NCBI RefSeq assembly: GCF_021233415.1
Contig: NZ_CP089466.1
Coordinates: forward strand, 1,674,001-1,738,000
DNA from: Halobacterium litoreum
GTDB lineage: Archaea > Halobacteriota > Halobacteria > Halobacteriales > Halobacteriaceae
Direction: 5' to 3'
DNA length: 64,000 bases
Made by a program: the position numbers and the translations under genes. Positions 39,328-61,174 of the stretch are shown here, one piece after another. The notes under the pieces are model-generated. The model saw nothing but the letters and a program-made list of their open reading frames with translations, was not told where the DNA came from and did not search any database. Position 1 is the stretch's first letter; every line of letters begins with the position of its first letter.

Positions 39328-40343
39328 TCCCCGTCACCTCCGGGGGCGCGGCCGGTCACGTCGAGGAACACGTCCTCCAAATCGGGTTCGAGGCCGTCCA
39401 CATCGAGCAGCGTGCAGTCGGCGTCTCGGAGGACGTCGAGGACCCCGTAGAGCGTGTGGTCGTCGGCGAGTGTCACCTCGAAGCGCGTGCGGTCGGCGAG
39501 GGCCTCCCAGTTCTCCACGATGAACGCGCGTTCGAGTCGGTCGCGCGCCCGCTCGGAGACCGCGCCCTCGACTTCCAGTTGGTAGGCCTGCGTCTCGAAG
39601 ACGCCGACGAGGTCCTCGACGGCGTCGTCGGCGATGACTTCGCCGTCAGAGAGGATGACCACCCGGTCACAGACCTGCTCGACCACGTCCATGTCGTGAC
39701 TGGAGAGGACGACCGTGATGGACTCCTCGTCGGCGAGCCGTCGGAGTTCTCGCCGGAGTTCCACGGACGCCTCCACGTCGAGCCCGAGCGTCGGTTCGTC
39801 GAGGAACACGACGTCCGTGCCGCGCGCGAGCGTCGCCGCCAGCGACACCTTCTGTTTCTGGCCGCGGGAGAGTTCGTTGACCGCTTCGTCCGCCTTCTCG
39901 GCGAGGTTGAATCGGTCGAGGAGTTTGTCGTGCCGGGCGCGGGCGGCCTCCGGGTCGTTGCCGCCGAGCGCGGCGAAGAACTCGAGGTTCTCGCGGACGG
40001 TGAGTTTCCAGTAGGTGTTCCGCGCGCCCTCCAGCATCGCGCCGACGTGCTTGTAAACGCCGCGGGGGTTCTCGTGGGCGTCCACGCCGGCTATCTCGAC
40101 GGTGCCCGAGGAGGGAACGACGAGACCGAGGACGGACTTGATGGTGGTCGTCTTCCCGGCGCCGTTCGGACCGAGCACGCCGACGACTTCGCCGCGGTTC
40201 ACCTCGAAGGAGACGCCGTCGACGGCCTGTACCGCGTCCTCGCCGTCGCCGTACGTCTTCCGGAGGTCGTCCACTGCGAGCACCGTCTCGCTCTCGGGGG
40301 CCGACTCGTCGGGCGGTCGTTCTCGCTGTGTCGCCTGACTCAT
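39324..40343 (-). CDS. ABC transporter ATP-binding protein
   Basis: ATPase of the third ABC-2 exporter, 339 residues. An acidic polar N-terminus (about 1-28) precedes Walker A GPNGAGKTT near residue 66, the signature LSRGQKQKVSL near 160, Walker B VVFLDEP near 182, and SSHDMDVVE with the switch histidine near 213. The C-terminal part ends in LEDVFLDVTGR. I chose the ATG at 40343; ACCATTATGCC at about 40366-40376 is the likely TATA box, making the transcript leaderless and ruling out an ATG at 40370. The regulator upstream is divergent and two palindromes lie between. Confidence 0.93.
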   Translation of the reverse strand: MSQATQRERPPDESAPESETVLAVDDLRKTYGDGEDAVQAVDGVSFEVNRGEVVGVLGPNGAGKTTTIKSVLGLVVPSSGTVEIAGVDAHENPRGVYKHVGAMLEGARNTYWKLTVRENLEFFAALGGNDPEAARARHDKLLDRFNLAEKADEAVNELSRGQKQKVSLAATLARGTDVVFLDEPTLGLDVEASVELRRELRRLADEESITVVLSSHDMDVVEQVCDRVVILSDGEVIADDAVEDLVGVFETQAYQLEVEGAVSERARDRLERAFIVENWEALADRTRFEVTLADDHTLYGVLDVLRDADCTLLDVDGLEPDLEDVFLDVTGRAPGGDGE

Positions 40344-40378
40344 GGACACATCCAGCGCTCGGGTGGGCATAATGGTTT

Positions 40379-40395
40379 CCAGAATGAACGTTCTG
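40379..40395. promoter_or_regulatory. Palindrome 1 between the exporter and its divergent regulator
   Basis: CCAGAATGAACGTTCTG, with arms AGAAT/GTTCT around GAAC (one mismatch). It abuts the TATA box of the ABC operon (about 40366-40376) on its upstream side, where BRE is expected. Confidence 0.65.
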
Positions 40396-40406
40396 TTTCT
40401 CCGCTT

Positions 40407-40423
40407 CCAGAACGAACGTTCTC
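40407..40423. promoter_or_regulatory. Palindrome 2 between the exporter and its divergent regulator
   Basis: CCAGAACGAACGTTCTC, with perfect arms AGAAC/GTTCT around GAAC. It repeats palindrome 1 with two differences, 28 bases apart start to start, and touches the TATA-like CTCTAAGCG (40421-40429) of the regulator gene. Two near-identical sites in a divergent promoter fit one regulator controlling both directions. Confidence 0.65.
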
Positions 40424-40476
40424 TAAGCGTTCTGACTGGAGTGGGGTTTTTGCCGGTCGGGGAGCGAGTCCCGAAC

Positions 40477-41325
40477 ATGACCGACGCCGACGCCGCCGCA
40501 GACGCCTTCGACGTGCTCTCGGACCCCTCGCGGGTCGCCATCCTCTGCGAACTCGCCGACCGCGTCCACGCGATTGAGGGCAACCCCGTCGAGTTCTCGG
40601 AACTCCGGCGCGCGACCGGGTTCGACGACGCCGGCCGCTTCAACTACCACCTCGGGAAACTCCGCGACCGGTTCGTCGTCAAACGCGAGGACGGCTACGT
40701 GCCGACGGCGGTCGGACTGAAAGCAATCGGCTCCGTGGAAGCCGGGACGTACACGAACGACCTCGAAGCGCGCTCGGGAACCATCGACTACGACTGCCCG
40801 TCGTGTGGCGACCCGCTCACGGCGACCTACGAGGACCAAACCGTCACCGTCGAGTGCGAGAGCGAAGCGAACGCGACGACGGTGCAGACCGCGGTTCCGC
40901 CCGCCGCGGCGGCCGACGCCACCATCGAGGACATCGTGGCGTTCGTCGTCGGCGACATCCAGCGCGACGTGGAAGCGCTCGTCGACGGCGTCTGCCCGAT
41001 GTGCTCCGGGCGCGTAGTCACGGGCCCGATAGAGCGCGGGGAGGCCGCCCACCTGAACGTCGAGTTGGACTGCGAGAACTGCTGGATGTCGACCCGACTC
41101 CCGGTCGGCGTCGCGGCGCTCCGACACCCCGCCGTCGTCGCCCTGTTCTACGACCACGGCGTCGACGTCCGCGACCGCTTTCTCACCGACTTCGAGTTCG
41201 TCGGCGCGCGCGAGGACGCCAAAATCGTCGTCGAAGACCCGGTAGAAGTCGAACTGACCGTCTCGGTCGGCGGCGACGCGGTGACGCTCCGCATCGACGA
41301 CGACCTCGACGTACGAGAAGTCTGA
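40477..41325 (+). CDS. ArsR-like winged-helix regulator with zinc-ribbon segments
   Basis: A 282-residue regulator. The N-terminal winged helix (about 8-85) contains DVLSDPSRVAILCELAD and DDAGRFNYHLGKLRDRFVVKRE, the ArsR/DUF7342-like arrangement of haloarchaea. The middle holds CPSC near residue 108 plus a later lone Cys, and a second cluster CPMC near 174 with CENCW near 201; these can form zinc ribbons. The C-terminus is a beta-rich ligand-like domain. It is divergent from the ABC exporter with paired palindromes between, so it probably represses the exporter and itself. The inducer is unknown. Confidence 0.82.
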   Translation: MTDADAAADAFDVLSDPSRVAILCELADRVHAIEGNPVEFSELRRATGFDDAGRFNYHLGKLRDRFVVKREDGYVPTAVGLKAIGSVEAGTYTNDLEARSGTIDYDCPSCGDPLTATYEDQTVTVECESEANATTVQTAVPPAAAADATIEDIVAFVVGDIQRDVEALVDGVCPMCSGRVVTGPIERGEAAHLNVELDCENCWMSTRLPVGVAALRHPAVVALFYDHGVDVRDRFLTDFEFVGAREDAKIVVEDPVEVELTVSVGGDAVTLRIDDDLDVREV

Positions 41326-41343: not shown

Positions 41344-42165
41344 CTACTGGAGGCGTTCGACGGTCTCCACGAGCGGGTGGCGCGCGTAGTCCACGACGTT
41401 GATGTCCTCGATGGACTCCAACCCCTCCTTGTTCGCGGTGCGCGCCATCCCGAGGTCCACGCGCTTCCCGAGCACGATGACGTACGCGTCCATCTCCTCG
41501 ACGCCCGAGCGCTCGGCCGCCATCACGCGATGGTGGCCGTCGGCGAGCAGCAGGTCGCCGTTCTCGCCGTCGCCGTTCCCGCCGTTGTCGATGACGACCA
41601 GCGGCTCCGCGAGGCCGTGTTCGAGTTCGTAACTCCGCCCCTCCAGTTCGTCCGCGTACACCTTTCCCTGGGTCGGCACCAGGTCTGCGAGGTCGACCGT
41701 GCGGCGCTCCTCGCTCGCCTCGACGCCGTGAATCGTCTCCAGCGTGCGCTTGAGTTTCCCGACCTTCTCCGGGGTCGCGCGCTCTATCTGCGAGCGGATG
41801 ACGTCGGAGTTCGAGATGATGCCGACGAGGTTCCCCGCGTCGTCGACCACCGGGAGTTTCTGGATGCCCGACCGCAGGATGACGCGGGCCGCGTCGTTGA
41901 CGTCCATCTCGGGGTGTGCGACCACGAGGTCGTCGCTCATCACCTTGAACACGAGTTCCCCGGGGTCGGAGAGCAGGAGGTCGCGGGCCGACACGAACCC
42001 CTCGACGCGGCGGCCGTCACACACCGGGAAGCCGTTGTGTTCGCTCTCCGCGATACGTTGTGCCACGTCCCGCACGGTGTCGTCCGGCGACACCGTCGCC
42101 ACGTCCCGAGTCATGTAGTCCCCCACGACCGGCTTGTCCCCGTTGTGTTCCAGCGCCTCGTCCAT
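41344..42165 (-). CDS. CBS-domain pair fused to a ParB-like nuclease domain
   Basis: A 273-residue protein. Residues 15-125 contain two CBS domains (DYMTRDVATVSPDDTVRDVA and KVMSDDLVVAHPEMDVNDAA), which normally bind adenine nucleotides. Residues 155-240 form a ParB/sulfiredoxin-like domain with LLLADGHHRVMAA, where DGHHR at 209-213 is the signature. Together this suggests a nucleotide-responsive DNA- or NTP-handling protein; the real role is unknown. The ATG at 42165 is supported by the TATA-like AGTTTTTGACGG (42187-42198), which would start transcription after an in-frame GTG at 42174. It lies beside the TrkA-N/DHH gene. Confidence 0.85.
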   Translation of the reverse strand: MDEALEHNGDKPVVGDYMTRDVATVSPDDTVRDVAQRIAESEHNGFPVCDGRRVEGFVSARDLLLSDPGELVFKVMSDDLVVAHPEMDVNDAARVILRSGIQKLPVVDDAGNLVGIISNSDVIRSQIERATPEKVGKLKRTLETIHGVEASEERRTVDLADLVPTQGKVYADELEGRSYELEHGLAEPLVVIDNGGNGDGENGDLLLADGHHRVMAAERSGVEEMDAYVIVLGKRVDLGMARTANKEGLESIEDINVVDYARHPLVETVERLQ

Positions 42166-42197
42166 CGCCCCCACGTAGGGCGGCGACCGTCAAAAAC

Positions 42198-43607
42198 TCA
42201 CTCCCCGCGAATCGCGTCGAAGAAACGCGTCGCGACCACGTCCTCGACCATCTCCGTCAGCGTCGCCTCCGCCTCTTCGCCCACGTCGTCGAACAGGCCG
42301 AGAGGGAGTTGGGCGCCCGCCATGTCGGCGTGCCCGCCCGCGGAGCCGATGTCACCGAACGCCGACCGCAACACCTCACCGAGGTCCACTTCCTTCCCGC
42401 GGGAGCGCGCGGAGACGTAGATAGTGCCGTCGGCGTACCCGTACACGAACGTCACCGTCACGCCGCGCATCGCGAGCAGGCGGTCGGCGGCCTGCGCGAG
42501 CGTGTCCCGGTCCGCGATGGCGCCGACGCAGGACGCCAGAATCGACCCGTCGAGTTCCCGGTTGCGGATGGCGCGCGCGATGGTGTCGAACGTGTCCGCG
42601 CTCATCGACGGGCTCTCGATGCGCTCTAGGATGTCGATGTCGGCCCGCGGCAGCAGCCACGCCCCCGCCTCGAAGTCGTCGGTCGTGATTTCGCGCGCGA
42701 AGTCCTTCGTGTCCACGCGAATCCCGTACAGCAACCCGGTCGCCACCGCCGTCCCGAGGTCGAGGCCGTAGCCGCGCACGTACTCCACGAGAATCGTACT
42801 GGACGCGCCGACGTCCTCGCGGATGTCCACGAAGTCCGCGTCCACGTCGCCCTTCGGCGGGTGGTGGTCGACGACGATGGATATCTCGGTCTCCGGGTCG
42901 AGTTGGTCGTTCACGCCGGGCGCCGAGTGGTCGACGAGCGCCACCGCGTCGAAGTCCAGGTCGTCCTCCGGGCTGACGTTGCGCACCTGCAGTTCGAGGA
43001 GGTTCACGAACGCGCGGTTCTCCTGGTGGGAGATATCCCCGAAGTAACACGCCTCCGTCGGGACGCCCGCATCCTCCGCGATGCGCTGGAGGCCCACGGC
43101 CGCAGCGATGGCGTCCGGGTCGGGGTTGTCGTGCATGAACACGCCGAGTGTCCCGTCGATGCCGTTCAGCGTCTCGCGGAGCGCCTGCAATCGCTCGGAC
43201 GCCCCAGAGGCCGTCAACTCCTCGACGCGGTCGAGAATCGCCTCGCCGGGGTCCACCACGCGGTCCGCGAGCGCGTCGAGTTCCCGCCGGTCGACGTCGG
43301 TCGCGTCGAACCCCAGGTACGCCACCAACTCGGCGTCCGGGTACACCTCGCGGGCGGCCTCGGCCGCGAGCCGATTCGTGTCCGCGGCGTCGGTCGCCAC
43401 CACCACCACGTCGACGTCCTGTTCGACGTGCCGAATCGCGTCCGGGTCCGTGACGTCCCTGACTTCGGCGGCGACCTTCTCGTTTCGCAGCGACTCCACT
43501 CGGCTCTCGTCGCCGTCGAGGACGAACAGCTCGCCACGCCACTCCGAGAGCGTCTCGACGAGAGCGTGGCCCGTCGTCCCACAGCCCAACACGAGCCGAG
43601 AAACCAT
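42198..43607 (-). CDS. TrkA-N (RCK) domain fused to a DHH/DHHA1 phosphoesterase
   Basis: A 469-residue protein. Residues 1-130 are a Rossmann-type RCK domain with GCGTTGHA (8-15) and LDGDESRVESL, which would bind NAD(H) or a nucleotide. The DHH phosphoesterase follows with HDNPDPDA (159-166), D226, and VVDHHP (246-250), binding two Mn ions. DHHA1 is at the C-terminus with GSAGGHADMAGAQ near 425. DHH-DHHA1 enzymes hydrolyse cyclic dinucleotides or short oligonucleotides; the RCK part recalls regulators of ion transport. A CCTTTTAGCGG box (43632-43642) predicts a leaderless transcript at this ATG. It is upstream of the CBS-ParB gene. Confidence 0.88.
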   Translation of the reverse strand: MVSRLVLGCGTTGHALVETLSEWRGELFVLDGDESRVESLRNEKVAAEVRDVTDPDAIRHVEQDVDVVVVATDAADTNRLAAEAAREVYPDAELVAYLGFDATDVDRRELDALADRVVDPGEAILDRVEELTASGASERLQALRETLNGIDGTLGVFMHDNPDPDAIAAAVGLQRIAEDAGVPTEACYFGDISHQENRAFVNLLELQVRNVSPEDDLDFDAVALVDHSAPGVNDQLDPETEISIVVDHHPPKGDVDADFVDIREDVGASSTILVEYVRGYGLDLGTAVATGLLYGIRVDTKDFAREITTDDFEAGAWLLPRADIDILERIESPSMSADTFDTIARAIRNRELDGSILASCVGAIADRDTLAQAADRLLAMRGVTVTFVYGYADGTIYVSARSRGKEVDLGEVLRSAFGDIGSAGGHADMAGAQLPLGLFDDVGEEAEATLTEMVEDVVATRFFDAIRGE

Positions 43608-43631: not shown

Positions 43632-43642
43632 CCGCTAAAAGG
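43632..43642 (-). promoter_or_regulatory. TATA-like box of the TrkA-N/DHH gene
   Basis: ACCTTTTAGCG on the minus strand lies about 27 bases before the ATG at 43607 and separates this gene from the end of the nuo operon. Confidence 0.5.
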
Positions 43643-43666: not shown

Positions 43667-45160
43667 TCAGGCGCCGAACAGCGCGCCAGCGGCGTGAATC
43701 GCGGTCTGCGCGACGGGGTCGAACGCGACCAGCAACACGACCGTCGCCACGGCAGCGGCGACGACCGCCGCGTACAGGCCGGTCGGCGTGCCACGCAGGT
43801 CGAGGTCGCCGTCAGGCTCCTCGATCCAGAGCGCCTTCACGACCCGGGAGTAGTAGAACAGCGACAACGCGCTGTTGATGGCCGCGACGGCCGCGAGCCA
43901 CGCGAACCCGGACTGCACGGCACCAGCGAACAGCAGGTACTTCGAGAGGAAGCCGCCGCCGACCGGCAGGCCGGCGAGGCTGAACATGAACACGGTCATC
44001 GCGACAGACGCCACGGGGGCGCGCTTCGCGAGGCCGTTGTAGTCCTCGAACGTCCGTCCGACGCCCCAGTACTCGGCGAGCGCGACGAACAGGAACGCGC
44101 CCGTGTTCATGAAGCCGTAGACGAGCAGGTGCATCATCGACGCGCCGAGCACGAAGGAGTTCTCCGCGCCCGCGCCGCTCTGGAGCGCGGCGAGGCCGAT
44201 GAGCACGTAGCCCGCGTGCCCCACACTGGAGTACGCGAGCATCCGCTTGACGTTGTCCTGAGTCGCCGCGGCGAAGTTACCGAGCGTCATCGTGACGACG
44301 GCGAGCACCGCGAACAGCAGCGACCAGTCGACGACCGTGTTCGCCACGACCTCCAGCGGGAACGCGGTCGTGAGCACGCGGAACGCCACCGCGAACCCGG
44401 CGGCCTTCGACGCCGACGAGATGAACGCCGAAATCGGCGCGGGCGCGCCCTCGTAGGCCTCCGGCGCCCAGAAGTGGAACGGCACGGAAGCAGTCTTGAA
44501 CGCGAACCCGCCGACGAGCATCACGATACCGAGGCCGAGCACGCCGGCGAACTCCGTGCCCGCGACCGTCTCGGCGACGCCCTGCAGGAGCATCGTCCCG
44601 GTGGCGGCGTACACGAGGCTGATACCGTACGCCATCACCGCGGAGGACAGCGCACCGACGAGGAAGTACTTCAAGCCGCCCTCGACGCTGCCCCGGTTCT
44701 TCTTCAGGAACGCGACCAGCGCGTACGACGGGAGGCTCGCGAGTTCGAGGCTCACGAACACCGTCACGAGGCTGTTGGCCGACGCCATCAGCGACATGCC
44801 GGTCGCGGCGAGCAACACGAGCGAGTAGTAGCCCGGCACGTTGTCCTCCTCCGCGACGTAGTCGTAGCTCGCGACCGCGACGAGGGTCGTGACGCTACCG
44901 ACGACGAACGCGAAGAACAGGCTCAGTTCGTCGACGACGAGCGCGCCGTCGAACTGGACGAACCGGTACTCGTAGTCCACCGTCGCCGCCTTCGCGAGGA
45001 ACCACGCGGCGACGCCGGCCGTCAGCGCGCTGCCGATGGTCGTGATGGACGCCAGCAGCGCGTTCTTCTTGCTCTTCGGTGCGATTGCGTCCACGCCCAA
45101 CACGAGGAGCGCGGTCAGGCCCAGAATCAACTGGGGCGTCAGCGGCGAGAGTTCGGTCAC
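43667..45160 (-). CDS. nuoN: NADH-quinone oxidoreductase-like subunit N
   Basis: Antiporter-like proton-pumping subunit of archaeal complex I, 497 residues with about 14 membrane helices. Typical parts are SLELASLPSYALVAFLKKNRGSVEGGLKYF, with the helix-breaking lysines, and AAATQDNVKRMLAYSSVGHAGY. It starts at a GTG (45160), fixed by a perfect GGAGGTGA six bases upstream inside the nuoM end. Last gene of the nuo operon. The functional proton path residues appear present. Confidence 0.95.
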   Translation of the reverse strand: MTELSPLTPQLILGLTALLVLGVDAIAPKSKKNALLASITTIGSALTAGVAAWFLAKAATVDYEYRFVQFDGALVVDELSLFFAFVVGSVTTLVAVASYDYVAEEDNVPGYYSLVLLAATGMSLMASANSLVTVFVSLELASLPSYALVAFLKKNRGSVEGGLKYFLVGALSSAVMAYGISLVYAATGTMLLQGVAETVAGTEFAGVLGLGIVMLVGGFAFKTASVPFHFWAPEAYEGAPAPISAFISSASKAAGFAVAFRVLTTAFPLEVVANTVVDWSLLFAVLAVVTMTLGNFAAATQDNVKRMLAYSSVGHAGYVLIGLAALQSGAGAENSFVLGASMMHLLVYGFMNTGAFLFVALAEYWGVGRTFEDYNGLAKRAPVASVAMTVFMFSLAGLPVGGGFLSKYLLFAGAVQSGFAWLAAVAAINSALSLFYYSRVVKALWIEEPDGDLDLRGTPTGLYAAVVAAAVATVVLLVAFDPVAQTAIHAAGALFGA

Positions 45161-59453: not shown

Positions 59454-60647
59454 ATGGCCGAGACACTCCTCTTGCAGGCGGGCGTGATGTTCGCGGCGGT
59501 GGCAGCCGTGGGCGTGCTCGCCGACAGAGCGGGCGTCTCACCGATTCCGCTCTACATCGTCGCCGGCATCGCCGTCAACGAGTACGTCGCGGGCGGCGCC
59601 GGACTCCCGTACGTCCACGAGAGCGAGTTCGTCGCCGTCGGCGCGGAACTCGGCATCGTCTTCTTGCTGTTGTTCCTCGGCCTGGAGTTCGACCTCGGGC
59701 GGTTGGTGCGCGAGCGGTCGAGTCTCCTCCGAGCGGGTGTCGCGGACTTCGCCGTGAACTTCGCCGTCGGGCTCGCGCTCGGGTGGGCGCTGTTCGGGTC
59801 GCTGCGCGCCGGCGTACTCGTCGCCGGCATCGTCTACATCTCGTCGAGCGCCGTCATCACGAAGACGCTACTCGACCTCGGGTGGATTGCGAACCCGGAG
59901 AGCGGGCCCGTCCTCGGGACGCTCGTCTTCGAGGACCTCGTCATCGCGGTGTACCTCGCCGTCGTCTCGGCGGTCGTCCTCGGCGGCGGCACGCTGGCGG
60001 AAGCCGCGCCGACTGTCGGCGTCGCCGTCGGCTTCCTCGCCGTCCTCGGCGTGCTCGTCGCCGTCGGCGAACCGGCGCTCGCCAGGCTGTTGGACACGAA
60101 CTCCGCGGAGTACTTCGTTTTGCGCGTGGTCGGCCTGACGGTCCTCGTCGCCGGCGCGGCACTCGCGGTCGGCGTCAGCGAAGCGGTCGCCGCGTTCTTC
60201 GTCGGCACCGCGCTCGGCACGACGGAGTTCGCGCACGTCGTCGAGGAGCGCCTGACACCCGTGAAAGACACGTTCGCGGCCGTCTTCTTCTTCTGGATCG
60301 GCCTCCTCACCGACCCGGCCGCGGTGGTCGGCGTCCTCGACGTCCTCGCCGTCGCGGTCGCCGTTTCCGCGCCCGCGAAGGTCGTGAGCGGCTACTACGG
60401 CGGTCAGGCGTACGGGCTCACCGACCGGCGGTCGCTGCGCGTCGGGCTCGCGCTCGTGACCCGCGGCGAGTTCTCGCTCATCATCGCCGCCGCCGCGACG
60501 GCGGCCGCCGGCACCACCATTCCCGTCGCGCTCGCGAACGACGTGTACGCGTTCGCAGTCGGTTACGTGCTCGTGATGAGCGTCCTCGGCACCGTGTTGA
60601 TGCAGTACTCGGGGGCGGTCGAGCGGTACCTCCCGGCCACCGGGTAG
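59454..60647 (+). CDS. Kef/CPA2-type cation:proton antiporter
   Basis: A 397-residue membrane protein with about 12-13 helices. Core marks of the CPA2 fold are VAGIVYISSSAVITKTLLDLGW (broken helix) and LGTLVFEDLVIAVYLAVVSAV, with the acidic ion-binding residue in FEDL. FFVGTALGTTEFAHVVEERLTPVKDTFAAVFFFWIGL matches the KefB/KhtU group. It lacks a C-terminal RCK domain of its own; that part is the separate gene 50 bases downstream. The likely ion is potassium, by analogy with KhtTU. Confidence 0.92.
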   Translation: MAETLLLQAGVMFAAVAAVGVLADRAGVSPIPLYIVAGIAVNEYVAGGAGLPYVHESEFVAVGAELGIVFLLLFLGLEFDLGRLVRERSSLLRAGVADFAVNFAVGLALGWALFGSLRAGVLVAGIVYISSSAVITKTLLDLGWIANPESGPVLGTLVFEDLVIAVYLAVVSAVVLGGGTLAEAAPTVGVAVGFLAVLGVLVAVGEPALARLLDTNSAEYFVLRVVGLTVLVAGAALAVGVSEAVAAFFVGTALGTTEFAHVVEERLTPVKDTFAAVFFFWIGLLTDPAAVVGVLDVLAVAVAVSAPAKVVSGYYGGQAYGLTDRRSLRVGLALVTRGEFSLIIAAAATAAAGTTIPVALANDVYAFAVGYVLVMSVLGTVLMQYSGAVERYLPATG

Positions 60648-60697: not shown

Positions 60698-61174
60698 ATG
60701 ACCGTCTACGAGACCGACATTCCGGGCGTCGGTCGGAAGTTCGAGATGGACATCGGCGGCGGCGAGCGCGTCGTGGTCGTCGTCCACCACGACAGGCGAT
60801 GCGAGGTGTTCCGGCGGCCGGACCCGGACGCCGACAGCGAGAAACTCCTCGACCTCTCCAGCGACCAAGCGAACAAACTCGGCTCCATCCTCGAGGGCGC
60901 GTACTTCGAGTCCGTGGACGTCGGGTCGCTCACGGTCCCGCTCGGGGACGCCATCATCGAGTGGTGGGAGGTCGAGGACGGGTCGTCGTTCGCCGGGCGG
61001 ACGCTCGCGGAGATGAACGTGCGAGCGGAGACAGGCGTCTCGGTCATCGCCGTCCAGCGCGGCGACGAGACGATTGCGAACCCCGACCCCGAGTTCGAGG
61101 TGGCGGACGGCGACCTCCTCGTGACGGTTGGGACGAGAGCAGAACAGAACGCGCTCGAAGAGTTGCTGGGTTAG
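60698..61174 (+). CDS. KhtT-like antiporter regulatory subunit (RCK_C/TrkA-C domain)
   Basis: A 158-residue soluble protein. Residues 1-70 resemble the N-terminal dimerisation part of KhtT (PGVGRKFEMDIGGGERVVVVVHHDRRCEVFRR). Residues 78-158 are an RCK_C domain with LTVPLGDAIIEWWEVEDGSSFAGRTLAEMNVRAETG and FEVADGDLLVTVG. In Bacillus, KhtT binds c-di-AMP and protons and controls the KhtU antiporter. The pair here is adjacent, though GGCTTTTGC before this gene suggests a separate transcript. Confidence 0.9.
   Translation: MTVYETDIPGVGRKFEMDIGGGERVVVVVHHDRRCEVFRRPDPDADSEKLLDLSSDQANKLGSILEGAYFESVDVGSLTVPLGDAIIEWWEVEDGSSFAGRTLAEMNVRAETGVSVIAVQRGDETIANPDPEFEVADGDLLVTVGTRAEQNALEELLG

Follow-up and report, generated by a model that had tools for sequence, protein, structure and literature searches.

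How do haloarchaea remove the signalling nucleotide cyclic di-AMP (c-di-AMP)? The question is raised by a gene in a 64,000-nucleotide stretch of the Halobacterium litoreum genome, hereafter the window, whose product combines an RCK_N domain with a DHH-DHHA1 module (42198-43607, minus strand; hereafter A). According to the sections of the literature consulted, c-di-AMP synthesis, the first step of the pathway considered here, is carried out by DacZ (PMC6741144; PMC8646023). Haloferax volcanii contains both c-di-AMP and pApA; c-di-AMP is reported to be essential in this organism and implicated in osmoregulation, and the degrading enzymes were called unknown in 2021 (PMC8646023). The source genome of the window (2.7 Mb) has a single diadenylate cyclase gene, dacZ, encoding DACZ_N and diadenylate cyclase (DAC) domains, and no 7TM-7TMR_HD match that would indicate a PgpH-type alternative. 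On the basis of sequence, fold and co-loss with the cyclase, we consider it likely that A is a soluble two-metal DHH-DHHA1 phosphodiesterase with the c-di-AMP made by DacZ as its physiological substrate. Three further groups of proteins enter the comparison: B, the second haloarchaeal RCK-DHH protein; D, a membrane-type DHH-DHHA1 protein without RCK; and N, the RCK-DHH proteins of non-haloarchaeal archaea.

Active site, fold and distribution of A

The first-pass annotation of the window had described A as an RCK_N domain fused to DHH-DHHA1 and had named it a candidate c-di-AMP hydrolase. The domain assignment holds, with the matches to TrkA_N, DHH and DHHA1 each exceeding the curated Pfam cut-off. 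All 13 catalytic residues are kept in each of 131 A sequences, a set in which the window gene occurs twice (as the window and as locus L002) and in which Haloferax-like and window-like sequences are over-represented through the queries used. For comparisons between groups we used the core ten catalytic positions H159, D163, D165, D226, D247, H248, H249, G424, G425 and H426. In a sequence ranking of solved structures, A comes closest to GdpP (9n0l, E 2.4e-15). Family II pyrophosphatases are next (from 8.8e-9; 4rpa), and chains named NrnA appear lower down (from 1.9e-4). The predicted structure of A (mean predicted local distance difference test score, pLDDT, 89; predicted template modelling score, pTM, 0.60) returned the catalytic domain of GdpP as its top Foldseek matches (5xt3, 5xsi, 5xsp). 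Alignment of the model by VIA-align gave a Z score of 28.3 with the Thermotoga maritima phosphodiesterase TmPDE (root-mean-square deviation, rmsd, 3.0 over 304 aligned residues) and of 27.2 with GdpP in complex with pApA (rmsd 5.4, 311 aligned).

The distribution of the family tells more about the substrate of A than the fold does. An A-type query found a match in all 194 Halobacteria searched, and the match was assigned to A in 193 of them: in 191 genomes by a best E ≤ 4.3e-109, beyond every B score for that query (best B, 4.4e-106), and in G002 and G129 by a residue-by-residue check. The presence of an A-type protein across Halobacteria is thus not a matter of chance. The remaining genome, G021, a divergent haloarchaeal genome of 1.9 Mb, has no clear A; it encodes a DHH-DHHA1 protein without RCK that is equidistant from A and B and has its core residues intact. 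The G021 loci L289 and L286 hold a degenerate B and this RCK-less protein. DAC was present in 53 of 53 Halobacteria searched for it.

Variation in both families was found in a sample of 294 genomes of the phylum, in which RCK-DHH proteins were counted at E ≤ 1e-30 and 14 genomes with weaker matches only (such as 4.9e-4 to 6.4e-12) were scored as being without one. RCK-DHH and DAC occurred together in 255 genomes and were both missing from 20; a further 11 had only RCK-DHH and 8 had only DAC (odds ratio ~58, Fisher value near 1e-17). In the 234 genomes with a completeness of 90% or more, the corresponding counts were 212, 15, 5 and 2. Both were missing from 10/10 genomes of family f26 and from 8/10 genomes of genus g77, the other two of which had both. 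The double absences therefore stand for two or more shared losses and not for 20 independent events.

These patterns suggest that A, acting on the product of DacZ, would remove c-di-AMP, probably yielding pApA and perhaps, in a further step, AMP. Several observations weigh against this assignment. With few independent co-losses, the Fisher values overstate the support, and the 11 genomes with RCK-DHH but no detected DAC, together with the 8 showing the reverse, break the association, although several of them are incomplete. The family II pyrophosphatases rank directly behind GdpP, matching A mainly over the DHH part; these enzymes are not known to carry a DHHA1 domain. A Bacteroides nanoRNase is as near to the A model (Z 27.8, rmsd 2.9, 306 aligned) as the phosphodiesterases are, and NrnA, DhhP and a RecJ-like protein are also close by fold. 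Since the scores for TmPDE, the nanoRNase and GdpP lie near each other, the substrate cannot be read from the fold alone, and DHH-DHHA1 relatives are enzymes that also cleave nanoRNA and pAp. Finally, D is intact in most haloarchaea and could do the same job as A.

One alternative is that A is an NrnA-like enzyme for nanoRNA, pApA or pAp, with c-di-AMP hydrolysis as a mere side activity. The fold and metal site are common to A, NrnA and Rv2837c, and many bacterial homologues are described, in the part of the source consulted, as acting on several of these substrates (PMC8268124). However, GdpP is nearer to A by sequence than the best chain named NrnA, and two lineages have lost the RCK-DHH family along with DAC, a pattern not expected of a role in RNA turnover. 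In Pyrococcus, moreover, a separate NrnA-like pApase is reported to leave c-di-AMP, pApA and nanoRNA undegraded (PMC8268124). We therefore regard an NrnA-like role for A as unlikely.

Another alternative is that wherever D is present it acts as the main c-di-AMP phosphodiesterase, with A serving another role there. D retains the full set of 13 catalytic residues in 30/30 sequences (loci L231-L260; L228 is also D), and a hydrophobic stretch near the N terminus in 23 of the 30 (mean hydropathy over 19 residues >2) recalls the topology of GdpP; in a tree, D groups with A (support 96/90). Yet at a best E ≤ 1e-80 D was found in only 78/97 Halobacteria, so that by this cut-off it is missing from 19, including all 8 genomes searched of the genus of the window. 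This patchy occurrence is unlike that of DAC and A, and D as the main enzyme appears quite unlikely; A remains the better candidate for removal of c-di-AMP.

The second RCK-DHH protein

Besides A, the DHH proteins found in the source genome are B (L032; 42% identical to A), one degenerate copy (L033) and three more distant proteins. B was found in 97/97 Halobacteria searched (best E ≤ 8.5e-171 in each). The core ten catalytic residues, complete in 131/131 A sequences and in all 20 of the best non-haloarchaeal matches, are complete in none of 40 B sequences. The second histidine of the DHH motif is retained in just 4/40 B, and G424 is replaced by alanine in 34/40. An aspartate-to-glutamate change at position 299 is found in every B, and because it also occurs in 4/20 non-haloarchaeal proteins, that change alone need not disable the enzyme. 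The nucleotide-binding motif of the RCK domain (GxGxxG and the acidic residue after strand 2) follows the opposite pattern: it is complete in 40/40 B and 19/20 non-haloarchaeal proteins, but in only 24/131 A. Mean pairwise identity among the 40 B is 76% in RCK and 78% in DHH-DHHA1, compared with 40% and 61% among 27 A, the genomes behind the two sets not being identical; B evolves more slowly than A.

B has kept its RCK site and lost its active site, and therefore looks like a sensor-only partner. Judged by these residues, B is probably a sensor controlling c-di-AMP turnover. In the other archaea of the phylum that were examined, a single protein combines the RCK_N sensing domain with the active site, and haloarchaea have two proteins. 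B, with its RCK_N domain and dead active site, might sense a nucleotide, for instance NAD(H) or ATP/ADP, and adjust the removal of c-di-AMP by A; in the simplest case it would form a complex with A as a partner subunit. The domains, the intact and lost residues, the wide conservation and the co-occurrence of the family with DAC can be read from the sequences themselves; the substrate and products of A are inferred, and that B adjusts removal is a tentative proposal drawn from residue patterns and conservation. The whole scheme, in which haloarchaea split an ancestral one-protein sensor-phosphodiesterase into a catalytic A and a universally kept pseudo-enzyme sensor B, the two assemble or communicate in some other way, and the nucleotide state sensed by the RCK site of B sets the rate at which A breaks down c-di-AMP, we would likewise call possible but doubtful. 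Regulation of a cyclic dinucleotide by a pseudo-phosphodiesterase more strongly conserved than its active counterpart would, if true, be unusual.

Two findings count against such a split. The RCK motif is intact in the A of the window, so that the division of labour is incomplete in the source genome: the 24 RCK-intact A sequences include those of the window, its genus and Halorussus, and erosion of the RCK site of A, common but not universal, does not apply here. In addition, A and B are adjacent in only 3 of 122 A loci (L087, L089 and L142, of which the last two are apparently the same record), where they are divergently arranged. These divergent neighbours are the sole hint in gene order of an A-B link.

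In a tree of 45 proteins, left unrooted because no suitable outgroup was available, a branch separated each of A, B and N from all other proteins (support 100/100, 100/100 and 94/96, respectively). This topology fits a gene duplication basal to the haloarchaea and is also compatible with an older origin of A. The degenerate copy L033 (G000:C1:2094866-2095843) is a third DHH-like protein, which lacks RCK, has lost most catalytic residues and has a moderately hydrophobic N terminus. By eye, the open reading frames (ORFs) beside it resemble inorganic pyrophosphatase and type I phosphodiesterase.

Gene neighbourhood of A

The genes around A are listed in Table 1. On the minus strand the order is nuoN, a gap of 59 bp, A, a gap of 23 bp, and the gene for a protein with two CBS domains and a ParB-like part (CBS-ParB). 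Reading by eye placed TATA-like stretches before both A and CBS-ParB, and the one upstream of A may mark a leaderless promoter of its own.

Table 1. Coordinates in the window of A, its domains, its neighbours and the KhtT-like gene pair
Feature	Position	Strand	Basis
A, predicted c-di-AMP phosphodiesterase, 469 aa, ATG start	42198..43607	-	ORF, Pfam, fold and residues
RCK_N (TrkA_N) of A, residues 5-96; GxGxxG and acidic D31 intact	43320..43595	-	Pfam E 2e-14
DHH domain of A, residues 156-296 (H159, D163, D165, D226, D247-H248-H249)	42720..43142	-	Pfam E 1.7e-10
DHHA1 domain of A, residues 354-450 (R401, G424-G425-H426)	42258..42548	-	Pfam E 9.7e-17
CBS-CBS-ParB-like protein, 276 aa; alternative ATG start at 42165	41344..42174	-	Pfam, two CBS, E 4.8e-29
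ParB-like C-terminal part with DGHHR motif	41344..41730	-	motif and weak profile match
NuoN-like subunit, 59 bp upstream of A, same strand	43667..45160	-	ORF and Pfam
TTTTAG, TATA-like, ~30 nt before the ATG of A	43635..43640	-	read by eye
KhtT-like RCK_C (TrkA_C) protein	60698..61174	+	Pfam
Na+/H+ exchanger-type antiporter, KhtU-like, directly upstream of the KhtT-like gene	59454..60647	+	Pfam

A nuoN-like gene is the usual upstream neighbour of A (within 600 bp in 79/122 loci). In 105 of the 122 loci, some of whose genomes were fetched twice, the gene immediately 3' of A is CBS-ParB, in the same orientation and again within 600 bp. In the others CBS-ParB is further downstream on the same strand (5), downstream on the opposite strand (4) or not seen (8, two of which, L159 and L171, end early downstream). 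No nuoN was detected in the fetched stretch of 27 of the 105 loci, and the adjacency of A and CBS-ParB is accordingly real and outlasts the loss of nuo linkage. On the other side of CBS-ParB in the window lies a convergent gene (40342-41325, plus strand) with DUF7347 and DUF7351 domains, probably a haloarchaeal winged-helix regulator; a homologue stands beside CBS-ParB in 2/20 haloarchaeal loci (L036-L055), with a partial match in a third.

The neighbour had been read in the first-pass annotation as two CBS domains joined to a ParB-like domain, and the two genes as a possible second-messenger pair. The CBS pair is confirmed. The C-terminal part is not recognised as ParB by Pfam; a profile of it has ParB/Spo0J proteins as its three best solved relatives with weak E values (0.04-0.15), which leaves the ParB-like label plausible but weak. 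A 2025 survey, in the portion consulted, reports that archaeal ParB folds are fused to CBS more often than to any other domain (PMC12704722). The neighbour may have a ParB-like fold as in SerK and the ParB-CTPases, although it differs in its fused CBS pair and in that no helix-turn-helix domain was found in it; in fold searches with the whole protein, the matches listed were filled by the CBS part, and SerK was not among them. Its DGHHR motif is presumably the one known from SerK.

As to the proposed pair, in which CBS-ParB would bind c-di-AMP or AMP and act downstream of A, the conserved adjacency within Halobacteria speaks for it, including the loci without detected nuoN, as does the superposition of the CBS pair on DarB with c-di-AMP (Z 17.2, rmsd 1.8, 120 aligned). 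CBS-ParB is also weakly associated with DAC: it is present in 183/294 genomes, 174 of the 263 with DAC and 9 of the 31 without (odds ratio ~5, and ~7 in the 234 most complete genomes, both far weaker than the ~58 for RCK-DHH). Against this, CBS-ParB is missing from 89/263 DAC-bearing genomes and is present in 10/10 genomes of g77, including all 8 without DAC and RCK-DHH, and many AMP- or ATP-binding CBS pairs score as high against it as DarB does. Moreover, in 8 of 18 non-haloarchaeal CBS-ParB loci (L266-L283) the gene directly downstream on the same strand, of ~100 aa, belongs to a single cluster, of which the one member examined is a phosphoribosyl-ATP diphosphatase, HisE (PRA-PH), which may point to histidine or adenylate metabolism. 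Given this linkage and the distribution, CBS-ParB was rejected as an obligate c-di-AMP partner, and a functional pair with A seems a poor prospect; a general adenine-nucleotide sensor fits CBS-ParB better than a c-di-AMP effector does.

Linkage of A to dacZ was also looked for and rejected: the 122 A loci, reaching at most 7 kb to each side, contained no dacZ match of at least 60 bits. In the source genome (locus L001), a mechanosensitive-channel gene lies directly 3' of dacZ on the same strand, an adjacency that agrees with a role of c-di-AMP in osmoregulation.

A KhtT-like protein had been noted at 60.7 kb; a TrkA_C domain is indeed present in it, and a Na+/H+ exchanger gene lies immediately upstream. 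The gene pair shares with KhtT/KhtU an RCK_C protein encoded beside a cation/proton antiporter (TrkA_C and Na_H_Exchanger domains), and we take the order of exchanger gene, then RCK_C gene, to be the KhtT-KhtU layout. By this analogy it is a possible c-di-AMP target; nothing was found that ties it specifically to the A locus. The earlier interpretation of the window was thus supported in part, in that A stands as a candidate c-di-AMP hydrolase and the KhtT-like gene was correctly recognised, while the reading of A and CBS-ParB as a pair is weak.

Haloferax candidates and known systems

A c-di-AMP phosphodiesterase of this type is not a new idea, being already a printed prediction for Haloferax. 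The earlier suggestion for A is well supported by its complete active site, by a catalytic domain like that of GdpP and by the joint loss of family and cyclase. In the part of the source consulted, HVO_0756, HVO_0990 and HVO_1690 are predicted Haloferax c-di-AMP phosphodiesterases, a proposal attributed to He et al. 2020 (PMC8305020). HVO_0990 and HVO_1690 are elsewhere listed as raised under hypochlorite and filed under DNA recombination/repair, in the portion of that article consulted (PMC10294847). A single contig of Haloferax denitrificans carries both D and A, separated by 226 kb, and B is found on a different contig. This spacing, set against locus numbers 0756 and 0990 that differ by 234, together with the position of A behind nuo genes, suggests that HVO_0756 is probably D, HVO_0990 A and HVO_1690 B, matched by spacing rather than sequence and with H. 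volcanii outside the loci compared. The neighbourhood of HVO_0990 behind nuo genes is, we assume, that of A.

The residue survey ranks these printed candidates: A is near-universal and intact, D is intact and missing from about one-fifth of the genomes searched, and B is universal in the sample and catalytically degenerate. HVO_1690, probably B, is printed as a phosphodiesterase, yet its residues indicate that B should be inactive. The division between A and B is not mentioned in the literature searched, which did not include He et al. 2020 or Yin et al. 2020. With genes named, c-di-AMP breakdown in haloarchaea is now testable.

Among characterised enzymes, A shares with GdpP the DHH-DHHA1 module and all metal and GGH residues, and GdpP is its best match by both sequence and Foldseek. 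In GdpP this module is preceded by membrane helices, a PAS domain and a degenerate GGDEF domain, whereas A, known here from its sequence, has RCK_N instead and no PAS or GGDEF match in Pfam. NrnA and the pApases share the fold and motifs of A; NrnA has no RCK domain, and the preferred substrates are different. A DHH phosphodiesterase of Pyrococcus yayanosii and Thermococcus kodakarensis, also an archaeal DHH enzyme, reportedly degrades c-di-AMP in vitro and in vivo (Jin et al. 2023). No RCK_C (TrkA_C) domain, the part of KtrA and KhtT that binds c-di-AMP, was found by Pfam in A or B. The RCK_N domain itself has a solved relative in 3llv, the NAD(P)-binding domain of an 'exopolyphosphatase-related' protein of Archaeoglobus fulgidus, which superposes on the A model (Z 18.1, rmsd 2.1, 131 aligned) and matches the RCK_N of the non-haloarchaeal member L057 (E 5.8e-30) and of B (2.5e-12). 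A and B thus belong to an archaeal RCK-DHH family represented by 3llv, which in Halobacteria appears to be duplicated, with B catalytically degenerate and the RCK site of A eroded in most sequences.

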